The notes below the pieces were generated by a model. The model was not told the DNA's origin and made no database searches. It saw only the letters and a program-made list of their open reading frames with translations. A program made the position numbers and the translations under genes. Below are positions 29,760 to 34,133 of a stretch of 64,000 bases of DNA, one piece after another; position 1 is the first letter of the stretch; every line of letters begins with the position of its first letter. Origin of the DNA: Chitinibacter fontanus (GTDB lineage: Bacteria; Pseudomonadota; Gammaproteobacteria; Burkholderiales; Chitinibacteraceae); the NCBI RefSeq assembly GCF_013423785.1, contig NZ_CP058952.1, positions 372,001 through 436,000 of the forward strand. The letters run 5' to 3'.

Positions 29760-30614
29760 ATGCGCCCAGCACCACTGACTGACGCCGAACAGCGTTATCT
29801 GATTGGAATTCTTTCTGACCTAGAGTCCGGCGATGCGCGCCAATGGTATTGGCTAGAAATTGCACATACTTTGCCCACCGCTAAGCCAACCCAACGCATA
29901 CACTGGCTAGGTATAGCCTTCAAAACCTTGGGCATCAAGGCGCTAAGCCCAATACTTATCAAGCTAAAAATCAAAGGCGCGGATTTATACTTGGATAGTG
30001 CGCAGCGATTAACAACATACGTCAGACAAAAACTTAACGATGCACTGCTGTTTACTGGCACACTGATTGGATTAATGGCTGGCTTTCAATTGCTTCCTGC
30101 CAGTTTGCAATTTGCCACTTGGTGTACAGCACTACTAGGCGCAGCTTGGCAAATCATGCATGAGCTTAGGCTCAGTAAAAAAAGTAAAGCCGACGAGACA
30201 ATAGAAGCAAACGATAGCGAGGCATTACCTAGCGCGGAATCAAGTCTGGGTTTAGCGAGCATTTTACTGGCCGCAGGCGTGAATGCCCAGTTAAGCCTCA
30301 CACTAGTCAAAGGGCTTAAACAGGACCCCGCGACATTTACTCCCCCACTGCTACTTCACTGCCCGCGGCTGAAACCAAGCCCAGAACCCAACCTGCCTAA
30401 TAAATTATGGCTAAGCGGGCTAGCTTGGCTTATTCCTGGCATTATTAGCAGTAAATTGCTGGGGCTGGTTATAGCGCCGTGGAATGCCTTATTGGCATTA
30501 TGCCTGCTCGGAGCCATTGCATTTTTGCTGCACCAGCAGCGCTCCGCGCGTTTAATGATGTTGGTAAGTTGGGTCGGTGGGTTTGCTCTAGCATCAATCG
30601 CGCATTACTTTTAA
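29760..30614 (+). CDS. Uncharacterised membrane protein in the ubi operon
   Basis: 284 residues, family not recognised. The first about 95 residues are soluble and mixed. Hydrophobic segments follow at about 97-115 and 120-135, then a charged stretch (KKSKADETIEANDSE), and the C-terminal part has three further helices ending in LASIAHYF. The start is one base after the ubiA stop, so it is almost certainly cotranslated with ubiCA. A role linked to quinone or membrane lipid is a guess from context. Confidence 0.72.
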   Translation: MRPAPLTDAEQRYLIGILSDLESGDARQWYWLEIAHTLPTAKPTQRIHWLGIAFKTLGIKALSPILIKLKIKGADLYLDSAQRLTTYVRQKLNDALLFTGTLIGLMAGFQLLPASLQFATWCTALLGAAWQIMHELRLSKKSKADETIEANDSEALPSAESSLGLASILLAAGVNAQLSLTLVKGLKQDPATFTPPLLLHCPRLKPSPEPNLPNKLWLSGLAWLIPGIISSKLLGLVIAPWNALLALCLLGAIAFLLHQQRSARLMMLVSWVGGFALASIAHYF

Positions 30615-30661: not shown

Positions 30662-32389
30662 TCACGTTTGCGTGGGCAAATAGTAAACTTCAACCTCGTT
30701 GCCCAAGCCGATAAATTGAACCTTGAGAGACAGCGCCCGCACCAGCGATACGCCACGACCAAAGGTTGATGATGGAATGGCTGCTGCATCATGGGCGTTA
30801 TAGATCGCCCGCCAGTCAAATCCGGCACCACTATCTTTAACACGAATCTTCAAAATTTCAGCATCTTTATACTGCAAACCCATCAAATCAATCTCGATTC
30901 GGCCTTCCTGCAAATGCGCCAAACGCTCAGCACGCTGAGCTAGGTAGACTTCCATCCCATCGGGTGCGGTTTTAATTTTCGAATCGAGCATCAACAAGCC
31001 GTGATCAACTGCATTTACGAACAACTCGGTAAGGATCAGGAAAATATCGGATTGCACATGGCTAAGCGATTTAATTTCTTTAACAAACGACATCATAAAT
31101 GGGATGGTGTTGACATAACGTAACTCATCCGCACTCAAGATCAGGCTGTAGCGCCAATTGCATTCGGTTGCAAGATTAAAATCAATGGTACTGGGGTCAA
31201 CCTTTGGCTTGACGGCCTCGATATCCAGTTTGGCCTGCAATTCACGCTCATCCAAACCAAAACGCGCAACGACCAGTGAGACATCATCGTGATGCTGCCC
31301 ACCCGCGAGAAAATCATTCAAATGCTCTTGTACCGCTTGAATCATAGATTCAGCGTGCGTCTGCGCTAAAACACCAAGTAGCGATGCTAGGCCATATTCT
31401 GTTTGAGACGGGTTACGAGCTTCGACCAGACCATCCGAGTACGCAATAATGTAACCCGGCTCTTTGTAGTAGATTCGCTCTGGTACCAAGTCGAGCGAAT
31501 GTGATGGCACGATTCCTAGAGGCAAATTACTGGAACTACAAACCCTCAGCACTTGCTTATTAGCATCGAGAATTTGAATTGGCGGCATGCCTGCATTCCA
31601 AATTTCGATAGTGCCACTTACTTCATCAATTGAAATCAACGAAACACACACAAATCGCCCAATCGGCAATACTTGGCGCACTTTGGCATTCATTTCAAAC
31701 AAGATATCGGTAATTGAATAGCCTTTCTCAGTCATGCTGTAAAAAGGCTGGGTCAGTGGCAAGACATTTAAGGCTGCAGTTAGTCCATGCCCAATTCCGT
31801 CTGCCAGCAAAATATGCAATGCCTGCCCAGGCGTACGGGCAGCAGCAATCAGGTCACCGGATAAGCTTTCGGCAGGTGATAGCAAATAGTCAAACTGGGG
31901 ATCCGCAAGCCGCTCCGAATTGACCATCTGATCCATCAGATGGCGAACGACTCGTTTTTCTTCTTCTGCCCGTTCGTAATAATCAGCAAGGGTTTGTGAT
32001 TGCTCTCGCACCTTCCGATTCAAATCGAGGGTACGGCCAAAAGCTTTGAGTTTTGCTTCTAGAACACGGAAGTTAACGGGCTTATTGATGTAGTCATCAG
32101 CACCACGCTCAATAGCATCAGCTAAGGCATTTTCTTCGCCAACACCCGTGACAAATACAATAGGAACCCAAGTGCCCCCCGCTTCGGCTTTAATCTGAAC
32201 CGCCGCCTCTGGCCCAGACATAATGGGCATCATCACGTCCATTAAGACCAAATCAGGCTGCTCTGCACGCCAAAGCTCAACCGCTTCTTGCCCGTTGCGG
32301 GCAACCAATGCACTGTGACCTAAAGCCTCAACAAATCGAGAGATTAATAAAAGTATCGCCTCGGTATCGTCAACGACCAAGATCTTCAT
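30662..32389 (-). CDS. hsbR: REC-PP2C phosphatase-HATPase regulator (HsbR-like)
   Basis: 575 residues, close to the 571 of Pseudomonas HsbR. Receiver domain with Asp51 (LVLMDVMMP) and Lys in INKPVN; SpoIIE/RsbU-type phosphatase from about 155-390 with metal sites ADGIGHG, YSDGLVEARN and HDDVSLV; C-terminal HATPase of the anti-sigma type with N-box TELFVNAVDHG and DSGAGFD. Such proteins switch between phosphatase and kinase toward a STAS partner, which is the next gene upstream (16 bases). In Pseudomonas the pair controls FlgM and swarming/biofilm. Last gene of the operon; convergent with the ubi operon. Confidence 0.87.
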   Translation of the reverse strand: MKILVVDDTEAILLLISRFVEALGHSALVARNGQEAVELWRAEQPDLVLMDVMMPIMSGPEAAVQIKAEAGGTWVPIVFVTGVGEENALADAIERGADDYINKPVNFRVLEAKLKAFGRTLDLNRKVREQSQTLADYYERAEEEKRVVRHLMDQMVNSERLADPQFDYLLSPAESLSGDLIAAARTPGQALHILLADGIGHGLTAALNVLPLTQPFYSMTEKGYSITDILFEMNAKVRQVLPIGRFVCVSLISIDEVSGTIEIWNAGMPPIQILDANKQVLRVCSSSNLPLGIVPSHSLDLVPERIYYKEPGYIIAYSDGLVEARNPSQTEYGLASLLGVLAQTHAESMIQAVQEHLNDFLAGGQHHDDVSLVVARFGLDERELQAKLDIEAVKPKVDPSTIDFNLATECNWRYSLILSADELRYVNTIPFMMSFVKEIKSLSHVQSDIFLILTELFVNAVDHGLLMLDSKIKTAPDGMEVYLAQRAERLAHLQEGRIEIDLMGLQYKDAEILKIRVKDSGAGFDWRAIYNAHDAAAIPSSTFGRGVSLVRALSLKVQFIGLGNEVEVYYLPTQT

Positions 32390-32405
32390 AAATCGAACCT
32401 ACTTG

Positions 32406-32717
32406 TTAGCGGATCGTAAAGATCTTGCCAAAACAAGCGATCTCCAAGACCTGCTTTACCGTATCGCGGCAATTCACCAGAGCAAGCGTCTTGCTCGCTG
32501 CGGCAATTTTCTCTTTGAGCAATAAAAGCATACCCAATGCTGAACTATCCAGATAGTTTACATTCTGAAAATCCACCAGAACTTCTTTGATATCTGGATT
32601 GGCAATAATTGACTCACAAACTTGGCGAAACTCACGATGAGCGCTGAAATCAAACTGACCCGACAAGATTACTCGGCCTACACTGCCTTCAATTTGTACC
32701 GTAGGAGTCATTCTCAC
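32406..32717 (-). CDS. hsbA: STAS-domain anti-sigma factor antagonist (HsbA-like)
   Basis: 103 residues, a single STAS domain. The phosphorylatable Ser is in the motif NYLDSSALGMLLLL (Ser58 or Ser59), as in SpoIIAA and HsbA. Substrate of the downstream phosphatase/kinase. In Pseudomonas its partners are FlgM and the diguanylate cyclase HsbD; neither is in this window. Confidence 0.9.
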   Translation of the reverse strand: MRMTPTVQIEGSVGRVILSGQFDFSAHREFRQVCESIIANPDIKEVLVDFQNVNYLDSSALGMLLLLKEKIAAASKTLALVNCRDTVKQVLEIACFGKIFTIR

Positions 32718-32794
32718 ACCAACCTTTCGCTAATCTATGTTTATAAATTTGGCTAACCAGAGCCTATACACACAAGTTAGGTAGAAAACCAAAC

Positions 32795-33982
32795 TCAGCT
32801 TTGTCTTAACACATTAGTTGTCTCGAGCACTCGAGGCAAGCAAATCTTGAATTCACTACCCAAATTTGGAGTTGAAGTAACAGTTATTTCCCCACCATAG
32901 CTGGAAATCAAATTCCTTACAATTGCCAAACCCAAGCCAGTACCGCCCTTTTTGGTTGTAAAAAAAGGTTCAAACAACCTTTCAAGTGCAGAAGCAGAAA
33001 TTCCAACACCTCGGTCACTCACCAATACCGTTACTTGCCGCTCACTCAACTCAACACGGCAGCTCACGAGCTGGCCTGCGACAGAAGCTTGACAAGCATT
33101 TTCAATTAAGTTGCTGAATGCGCCACTCAGCTCCTTGAAGTTTGCCATCACAACGGCAGAATCGTTTGGCAATTCTAATTGCAGCAAAATCCCTTGCTGC
33201 TCAAAAACCGACTTTACTTCAATAAATGCATCCTGAACTACCTCTTGCAATGAAATAGGGCTTACTTCTTGGGGCTGACCACGAACAAACAACAGCATAT
33301 TTTGGACCAGTGCCTCCAATCGCTGTAAACGTTCACTGGCTTTTACTGCGAACTTGATACGATCGGCCTCTTGAAGCTGTTCACGCTGTAAGTGCCCCAC
33401 ATACAACAACCCAGCTGCCAATGGTGTACGAAGCTGATGAGCTAGTCCCGCAGCCATCTCGCCCATCGCCACCAAACGACTATTGCGCTGCAAAGTTTGC
33501 CGCATTTCGACAGATGCACTCACATCATGCAGCAATACCACGGTCACAGCCTCCTCGACTACCTGCACTTGTTCAACAGTAATATAGCGCTTCAAATCGA
33601 CAGATTCGAATAGCAGCAATCCGCTCTCAGAGGTTTCCTGAAAATGGACAGTACAAAAATCATCCCAATTTTTAGCTACCAAGGACTCACCTAAAAGGCC
33701 AAGAGCGCGCTCATTACAGCGAATCACCATACCTCGATCATCAACCTCCAACACCCCGGCAGGTAATCTATCGAGCAACAAAGTGAGACGCCGTGACAAC
33801 ACTGCCTTCTCTTCAAACTGTTTTTTTAGATTGCCATTTGCAACTGCAAGCTGTTCCGTGAGGGATGTAACATCTTGCTGCAGACCTGCATAAGCATTTG
33901 ATAATTGATGAGAAGCTTCAGTAAAAAGCGCAAACGCCTCTTCCAAGTCTTTCGAATTGATTTGCTGATCTTGACTTGTCAC
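32795..33982 (-). CDS. FlrB/FleS-like PAS histidine kinase
   Basis: 395 residues, GTG start with AAGGA upstream. No membrane helix. N-terminal helix (EEAFALFTEASHQLSNAYAGLQQ...) resembles the FleS/FlrB opening, then a coiled coil, a PAS domain (about 68-155), HisKA with His182 in GLAHQLRTPLAA (the His-Gln-Leu form seen in FleS/FlrB) and HATPase with GTGLGLAIVRN. FlrB phosphorylates the sigma-54 activator FlrC for flagellar gene class III, but no FlrC is adjacent here. Lies in an operon with hsbA and hsbR. Confidence 0.85.
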   Translation of the reverse strand: MTSQDQQINSKDLEEAFALFTEASHQLSNAYAGLQQDVTSLTEQLAVANGNLKKQFEEKAVLSRRLTLLLDRLPAGVLEVDDRGMVIRCNERALGLLGESLVAKNWDDFCTVHFQETSESGLLLFESVDLKRYITVEQVQVVEEAVTVVLLHDVSASVEMRQTLQRNSRLVAMGEMAAGLAHQLRTPLAAGLLYVGHLQREQLQEADRIKFAVKASERLQRLEALVQNMLLFVRGQPQEVSPISLQEVVQDAFIEVKSVFEQQGILLQLELPNDSAVVMANFKELSGAFSNLIENACQASVAGQLVSCRVELSERQVTVLVSDRGVGISASALERLFEPFFTTKKGGTGLGLAIVRNLISSYGGEITVTSTPNLGSEFKICLPRVLETTNVLRQS

Positions 33983-34106: not shown

Positions 34107-34133
34107 TAAATTTAAATGTAATTTTGCCGATAT
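34107..34133 (+). promoter_or_regulatory. Sigma-28 (FliA) promoter of the chemotaxis operon
   Basis: TAAA (34107-34110), a spacer of exactly 15 bases and GCCGATAT (34126-34133). Consensus is TAAA-N15-GCCGATAA, so only the last base differs. It lies 40 bases before the GTG start of the first cheV. Confidence 0.85.

Follow-up and report, generated by a model that had tools for sequence, protein, structure and literature searches.

The window analysed here, a 64-kb stretch of the Chitinibacter fontanus genome (C1:372001–436000 of the one contig, 3.63 Mb, that makes up the whole genome), contains three open reading frames in the order flrB-hsbA-hsbR, all placed on the minus strand by the ORF list of the window. 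Chitinibacter sp. GC72 and C. tainanensis are the nearest named relatives. The gap between the kinase and HsbA genes is 77 bp and that between the HsbA and HsbR genes is 16 bp.

32795..33982, minus strand: FlrB/FleS-type PAS histidine kinase, 395 aa, with His182 (Pfam, PDB match, flrC pairing and AlphaFold model)
32406..32717, minus strand: HsbA/CrsA-type STAS anti-sigma-factor antagonist with a DSSALG phosphosite (Pfam, family identity and adjacency to HsbR)
30662..32389, minus strand: HsbR/CrsR-type REC-PP2C-HATPase response regulator, 575 aa (Pfam, invariant residues and model matches)

The locus is flanked on the kinase side by divergent cheV, cheV, cheY, cheZ and cheA genes and on the hsbR side by a hypothetical gene, ubiA, ubiC and a flagellin gene, several of these names being read from the sequence. 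The hypothetical gene (29760–30614, plus strand, 284 aa), which lies past ubiA and is convergent to hsbR, had no Pfam or NCBIfam match and evolves fast (32–49% among Chitinibacter species). As it is the next gene after hsbR, no hptB adjoins hsbR. A plasmid search gave no match. The preliminary description had proposed looking for flgM outside the window, and a FlgM gene was indeed found approximately 7.6 kb beyond its edge; RpoS is also encoded in the genome. One promoter-like site was detected between the flrB and cheV genes.

34107..34133, plus strand: sigma-28 (FliA)-like candidate site TAAA-N15-GCCGATAT, upstream of the divergent cheV-cheV-cheY-cheZ-cheA genes

This candidate has one mismatch to TAAA-N15-GCCGATAA, a consensus match only, and similar sites on the same strand are present in Chitinibacter GC72, the Deefgea loci and Silvimonas terrae. 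For the flrB operon itself no convincing sigma-54 or sigma-28 site was found, the sole good one facing cheV, and a sigma-70 scan returned fewer sites than in shuffled sequences.

Pfam analysis of the kinase revealed PAS_8, HisKA and HATPase_c domains, with the catalytic His182 in the motif AHQLRTP, and its AlphaFold model (mean pLDDT 82) consists of a long N-terminal helix (residues 10–71), a PAS region and the DHp/CA domains. The top PDB match was 9p6i (9.4e-43), the Vibrio cholerae FlrB that phosphorylates FlrC (PMC12607845), followed by ZraS at 1.5e-26; the next-closest kinase within the C. fontanus genome reached only 8e-26. An AtoS/ZraS-type identity was rejected, as the FlrB match is far better and linkage to flrC is pervasive (see below). 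In addition, the DHp region resembles that of FlrBs encoded beside FlrC. The kinase gene is flrB.

HsbA contains a STAS domain (Pfam, 1.3e-14), and the serine of its DSSALG motif is residue 56 when counted from an ATG two codons downstream, which is the phosphosite number of Pseudomonas aeruginosa HsbA (PMC5085249). Its gene adjoins hsbR in nearly all relatives. Across Chitinibacteraceae, HsbA identity is 88–98% compared with 43–69% for the kinase encoded in the same operon, suggesting that HsbA has several binding partners.

HsbR showed matches to Response_reg (1.7e-25), SpoIIE/PP2C (1.3e-36) and HATPase_c_2 (3.1e-06), and the AlphaFold models agree with the Pfam domain order. The receiver Asp51, the PP2C aspartates (Asp179, Asp197, Asp319, Asp368 and Asp369) and the N-box residues Glu455 and Asn459 are invariant in 24 relatives. 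The model matched P. aeruginosa RssB (3f7a) and, with a high rmsd of 14.2, the RsbU–RsbW part of Rv1364c (3ke6); since the latter is the sole structural match of the HATPase domain, an RsbW-like role rests on the Pfam match and the conserved residues. HsbR is 27–35% identical with gammaproteobacterial HsbR-like loci, a set containing no Pseudomonas sequence. Thus the three same-strand genes are of the types given in the preliminary description: an FleS/FlrB-like kinase, a STAS protein with a phosphorylatable DSSALG motif and a REC-PP2C-HATPase protein with its catalytic residues.

The same description had the kinase packaged without FlrC. This holds inside the 64-kb window but not for the genome, in which a clear flrC was detected by genome search; such a gene is the first half of one of the findings that the description had named as refuting it.

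C1:618202–619524: FlrC, 441 aa, REC-AAA-HTH, acceptor Asp53, between cheB and fliE

This FlrC is one of four strong sigma-54 activators in the genome, together with NtrC, a PilR-like protein and one without a receiver (the labels NtrC and PilR are inferred from sequence and neighbours). It lies approximately 213 kb from flrB. Genome searches found neither FlhD nor an FlrA/FleQ-like activator. Of 200 genomes surveyed in the order, 84 have the kinase and 84 have FlrC; the two occur together in 82 (hypergeometric p 3e-51). In 55 of the 200 the kinase is encoded immediately 5' of FlrC, with 12–128 bp separating the match edges. The kinase directly before FlrC is the usual flrB-flrC arrangement. 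As in V. cholerae FlrB–FlrC and Pseudomonas FleS–FleR, we have here a soluble PAS kinase with the same H-box region that co-occurs with a REC-AAA-HTH sigma-54 activator encoded beside fliE; what differs is that in this clade hsbA-hsbR, and in Deefgea the che cluster too, stand between flrB and flrC, that the two genes are far apart in Chitinibacter, and that the FlhD and FlrA/FleQ-like activators were not found. With flrC present elsewhere in the chromosome, what we see is two known systems united by rearrangement and not a novel one.

The order flrB-hsbA-hsbR was found at all nine named Chitinibacteraceae loci and, as kinase-HsbA-HsbR, in 16 of the 200 surveyed genomes (hereafter fused genomes), which belong to Chitinibacteraceae and two further GTDB families; such recurrence is not chance. 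Loss of the order in close relatives, which would have spoken against the packaging, was thus not seen. FlrC is present in every fused genome: in 12 of the 16 it follows HsbR at a distance of 0.8 to 9 kb on the same strand; two are split (C. fontanus and G099, of another Chitinibacteraceae genus); and in two the contigs end early, with FlrC nonetheless present. Joint flrB-hsbA-hsbR-flrC clusters also occur at the named loci L027–L029 and L032. The arrangement is real, conserved and made of known parts, and the earlier view that the flagellar checkpoint is joined genetically to partner switching is borne out by this packaging. A literature search, with subscription journals mostly outside its reach, found no published description of it.

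The surroundings of the module point to where it may have come from. Outside the fused genomes it is usually found behind cheB in a che cluster: HsbA-HsbR lies immediately 3' of CheB in 16 of the unfused genomes compared and in two MAGs, whereas in G080 CheA is just downstream of HsbA-HsbR instead of CheB being upstream. The Deefgea-like genome G004 carries on a single strand flrB-hsbA-hsbR-cheY-cheA-cheW-mcp-cheR-cheD-cheB-flrC-fliE-fliF. A short CheB separates HsbR from FlrC in Silvimonas and Amantichitinum, as it does in the two other families.

L028:11838–12521, and likewise L149, L150, L151, L152, L153, L154 and L164 (several genera): methylesterase-only CheB gene between hsbR and flrC

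This short CheB (about 202–257 residues) aligns essentially with the methylesterase half alone, without the receiver, and so appears to be left over from che genes that were lost. The Chitinibacter cluster is in two halves, flrB-hsbA-hsbR in the window and cheY...cheB-flrC-fliE at 618–628 kb (L145); the che cluster of C. fontanus is about 212 kb from hsbA-hsbR, and the two are linked in Deefgea and in unfused relatives. At both named Chitinibacter loci the convergent genes that come after HsbR are those of the window, so the break is common to the genus.

In the HsbR tree all fused HsbR proteins, with a fused Deefgea MAG locus among them, form one clade with 99/99 support, which makes a single relocation of the module to between flrB and flrC probable. 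On these gene orders and this tree, one insertion would be the simplest history: a CrsA/CrsR-type partner switch, formerly part of a che cluster, would have moved between flrB and flrC in the ancestor of Chitinibacteraceae and the two other families; the Chitinibacter cluster would later have been split through rearrangement, and in Silvimonas and others the che genes would have been lost save for the cheB remnant. A single event of this kind is also all that would be needed if the neighbourhood were functionally meaningless, with hsbA-hsbR having landed by chance and its expression riding on a flagellar promoter, and gene order in operons may often be passively inherited. We regard this as improbable, because the arrangement was kept in three families despite loss of the surrounding che genes and splits in two genera, and because HsbA is so exceptionally conserved compared with the kinase.

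As regards the donor of phosphate to the HsbR receiver, the preliminary description had suggested that the kinase may replace HptB. In its strict form, with the kinase as sole donor and no longer paired with FlrC, this would agree with an hsbR that has no adjoining Hpt gene and a window that has no flrC. However, flrC is present in the C. fontanus genome and in every fused genome surveyed, and Hpt domains are available from two other genes.

C1:625504–627579: che-cluster CheA with an Hpt domain
C1:3599607–3599855: stand-alone Hpt gene, beside a hybrid kinase gene

No positive evidence for the replacement was obtained: the DHp region is like that of FlrC-adjacent FlrBs, and kinase distances track FlrC better over the whole set. 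In a mirror-tree analysis, weak with its 11 genomes, kinase distances correlated at 0.94 with those of FlrC and at 0.83 with those of HsbR (0.88 for HsbA with HsbR); inside Chitinibacteraceae the FlrC advantage is gone (0.97 against 0.98). We therefore hold it very improbable, and the least probable of the readings considered, that FlrB has given up FlrC for HsbR. On the contrary, the FlrB-like DHp region, the retention of FlrC in all fused genomes and the distance correlations together suggest that FlrB keeps FlrC as its target. As the kin of HsbR sit in che clusters, a CheA or an Hpt protein is the more likely donor, and in C. fontanus this is probably the che-cluster CheA or the stand-alone Hpt protein.

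A branched donor has more in its favour. Here FlrB would phosphorylate both FlrC and the HsbR receiver, such that the hook–basal-body checkpoint also resets the HsbA switch (FlgM/FliA and RpoS). The flrB-hsbA-hsbR order is conserved over three families, and in two lineages (Chitinibacter and the genus of G099) flrC was separated while flrB remained with hsbA-hsbR, which could reflect a functional tie to HsbAR. In the Silvimonas-type genomes G054, G139 and G177 the che-cluster CheA has no close orthologue (identity of the best hits 46–47%, compared with 57–78% in most others) but the HsbR receiver is intact, so that another donor must serve there. Taken together, the receiver kept where CheA is lost and flrB staying with hsbA-hsbR make it possible that FlrB also acts on HsbR. 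A further difference lies in the first receiver helix, where many unfused HsbR proteins have Asn and the fused ones Ile, Val or Met; but the Asn-to-Ile change occurs also in the unfused f13 clade (G013, G061 and G105), and so it is not tied to the linkage and was rejected as a diagnostic sign of a change of donor. The unchanged DHp region, the retention of FlrC in 16 of 16 fused genomes and the lower correlation of kinase distances with HsbR over the whole set also speak against branching, which has little in its support besides gene order and which we consider unlikely, although clearly less so than the two explanations above. If it were true, one checkpoint would set both sigma-54-dependent rod and hook transcription and the HsbA switch that governs FlgM/FliA and RpoS.

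We thus favour, as the likely explanation, that flrB keeps FlrC, that hsbA-hsbR is a che-derived switch inserted once and that the linkage serves co-expression. For its activity FlrB/FleS depends on the export apparatus, the MS ring and the rotor, and it is this activity that drives FlrC/FleR (PMC7064773). In Chitinibacter, FlrB would sense whether export gate and rotor have been assembled and would phosphorylate FlrC, turning on the sigma-54-dependent rod and hook genes, while the HsbR receiver would be phosphorylated by the che-cluster CheA or an Hpt protein. HsbR would then toggle between phosphorylating HsbA through its HATPase domain and dephosphorylating it through its PP2C domain. The non-phosphorylated HsbA of Pseudomonas binds FlgM, and HsbR/CrsR bind RpoS (PMC6482189); HsbA may here set the availability of RpoS (via HsbR) and of FliA (via FlgM). 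The linkage would most likely be co-expression of two decisions and not a single phosphorelay.

The hsbA-hsbR pair has counterparts elsewhere. The Pseudomonas HptB–HsbR–HsbA system (PMC5085249, PMC6482189) has the same protein types, domain order and HsbA phosphosite motif, and its possible targets FlgM and RpoS are present in C. fontanus; in non-aeruginosa Pseudomonas the hsb cluster, too, is found among flagellar genes, close to fliK (PMC5085249). Unlike there, hsbR has no neighbouring hptB here and hsbA-hsbR come after flrB. In Shewanella oneidensis, crsR and crsA, the genes that control RpoS, belong to the che1 locus (PMC9855816), where a STAS antagonist and a response regulator bearing an anti-sigma domain are encoded together with cheA/Y/W/R/D/B. 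This che association is common in the present order and whole in Deefgea; the fused clade differs in having the module between flrB and flrC and no free-standing che operon. Shewanella ties CrsR/CrsA to a chemosensory system and Pseudomonas ties HsbR/HsbA to flagella, and one lineage here has both, with a single cluster joining flagellar checkpoint kinase, partner switch, che genes and checkpoint activator. The loss of che genes in Silvimonas-type genomes and the split cluster of Chitinibacter are natural experiments, and the question of which kinase feeds CrsR/HsbR becomes testable in the harmless chitin degraders of this lineage. VCA1086/VCA1087 are a possible Vibrio counterpart, on which the literature search yielded nothing of use.

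Finally, the genome encodes a second HsbA-like STAS protein, the sole close paralogue of HsbA (L147:5361–5660, minus strand; C1:230360–230659), of 99 aa with the motif DSAALG and 45% identity to HsbA. Its gene is convergent to ntrBC and stands beside a ferredoxin-NADP reductase-like gene, and the protein might be another HsbR client.
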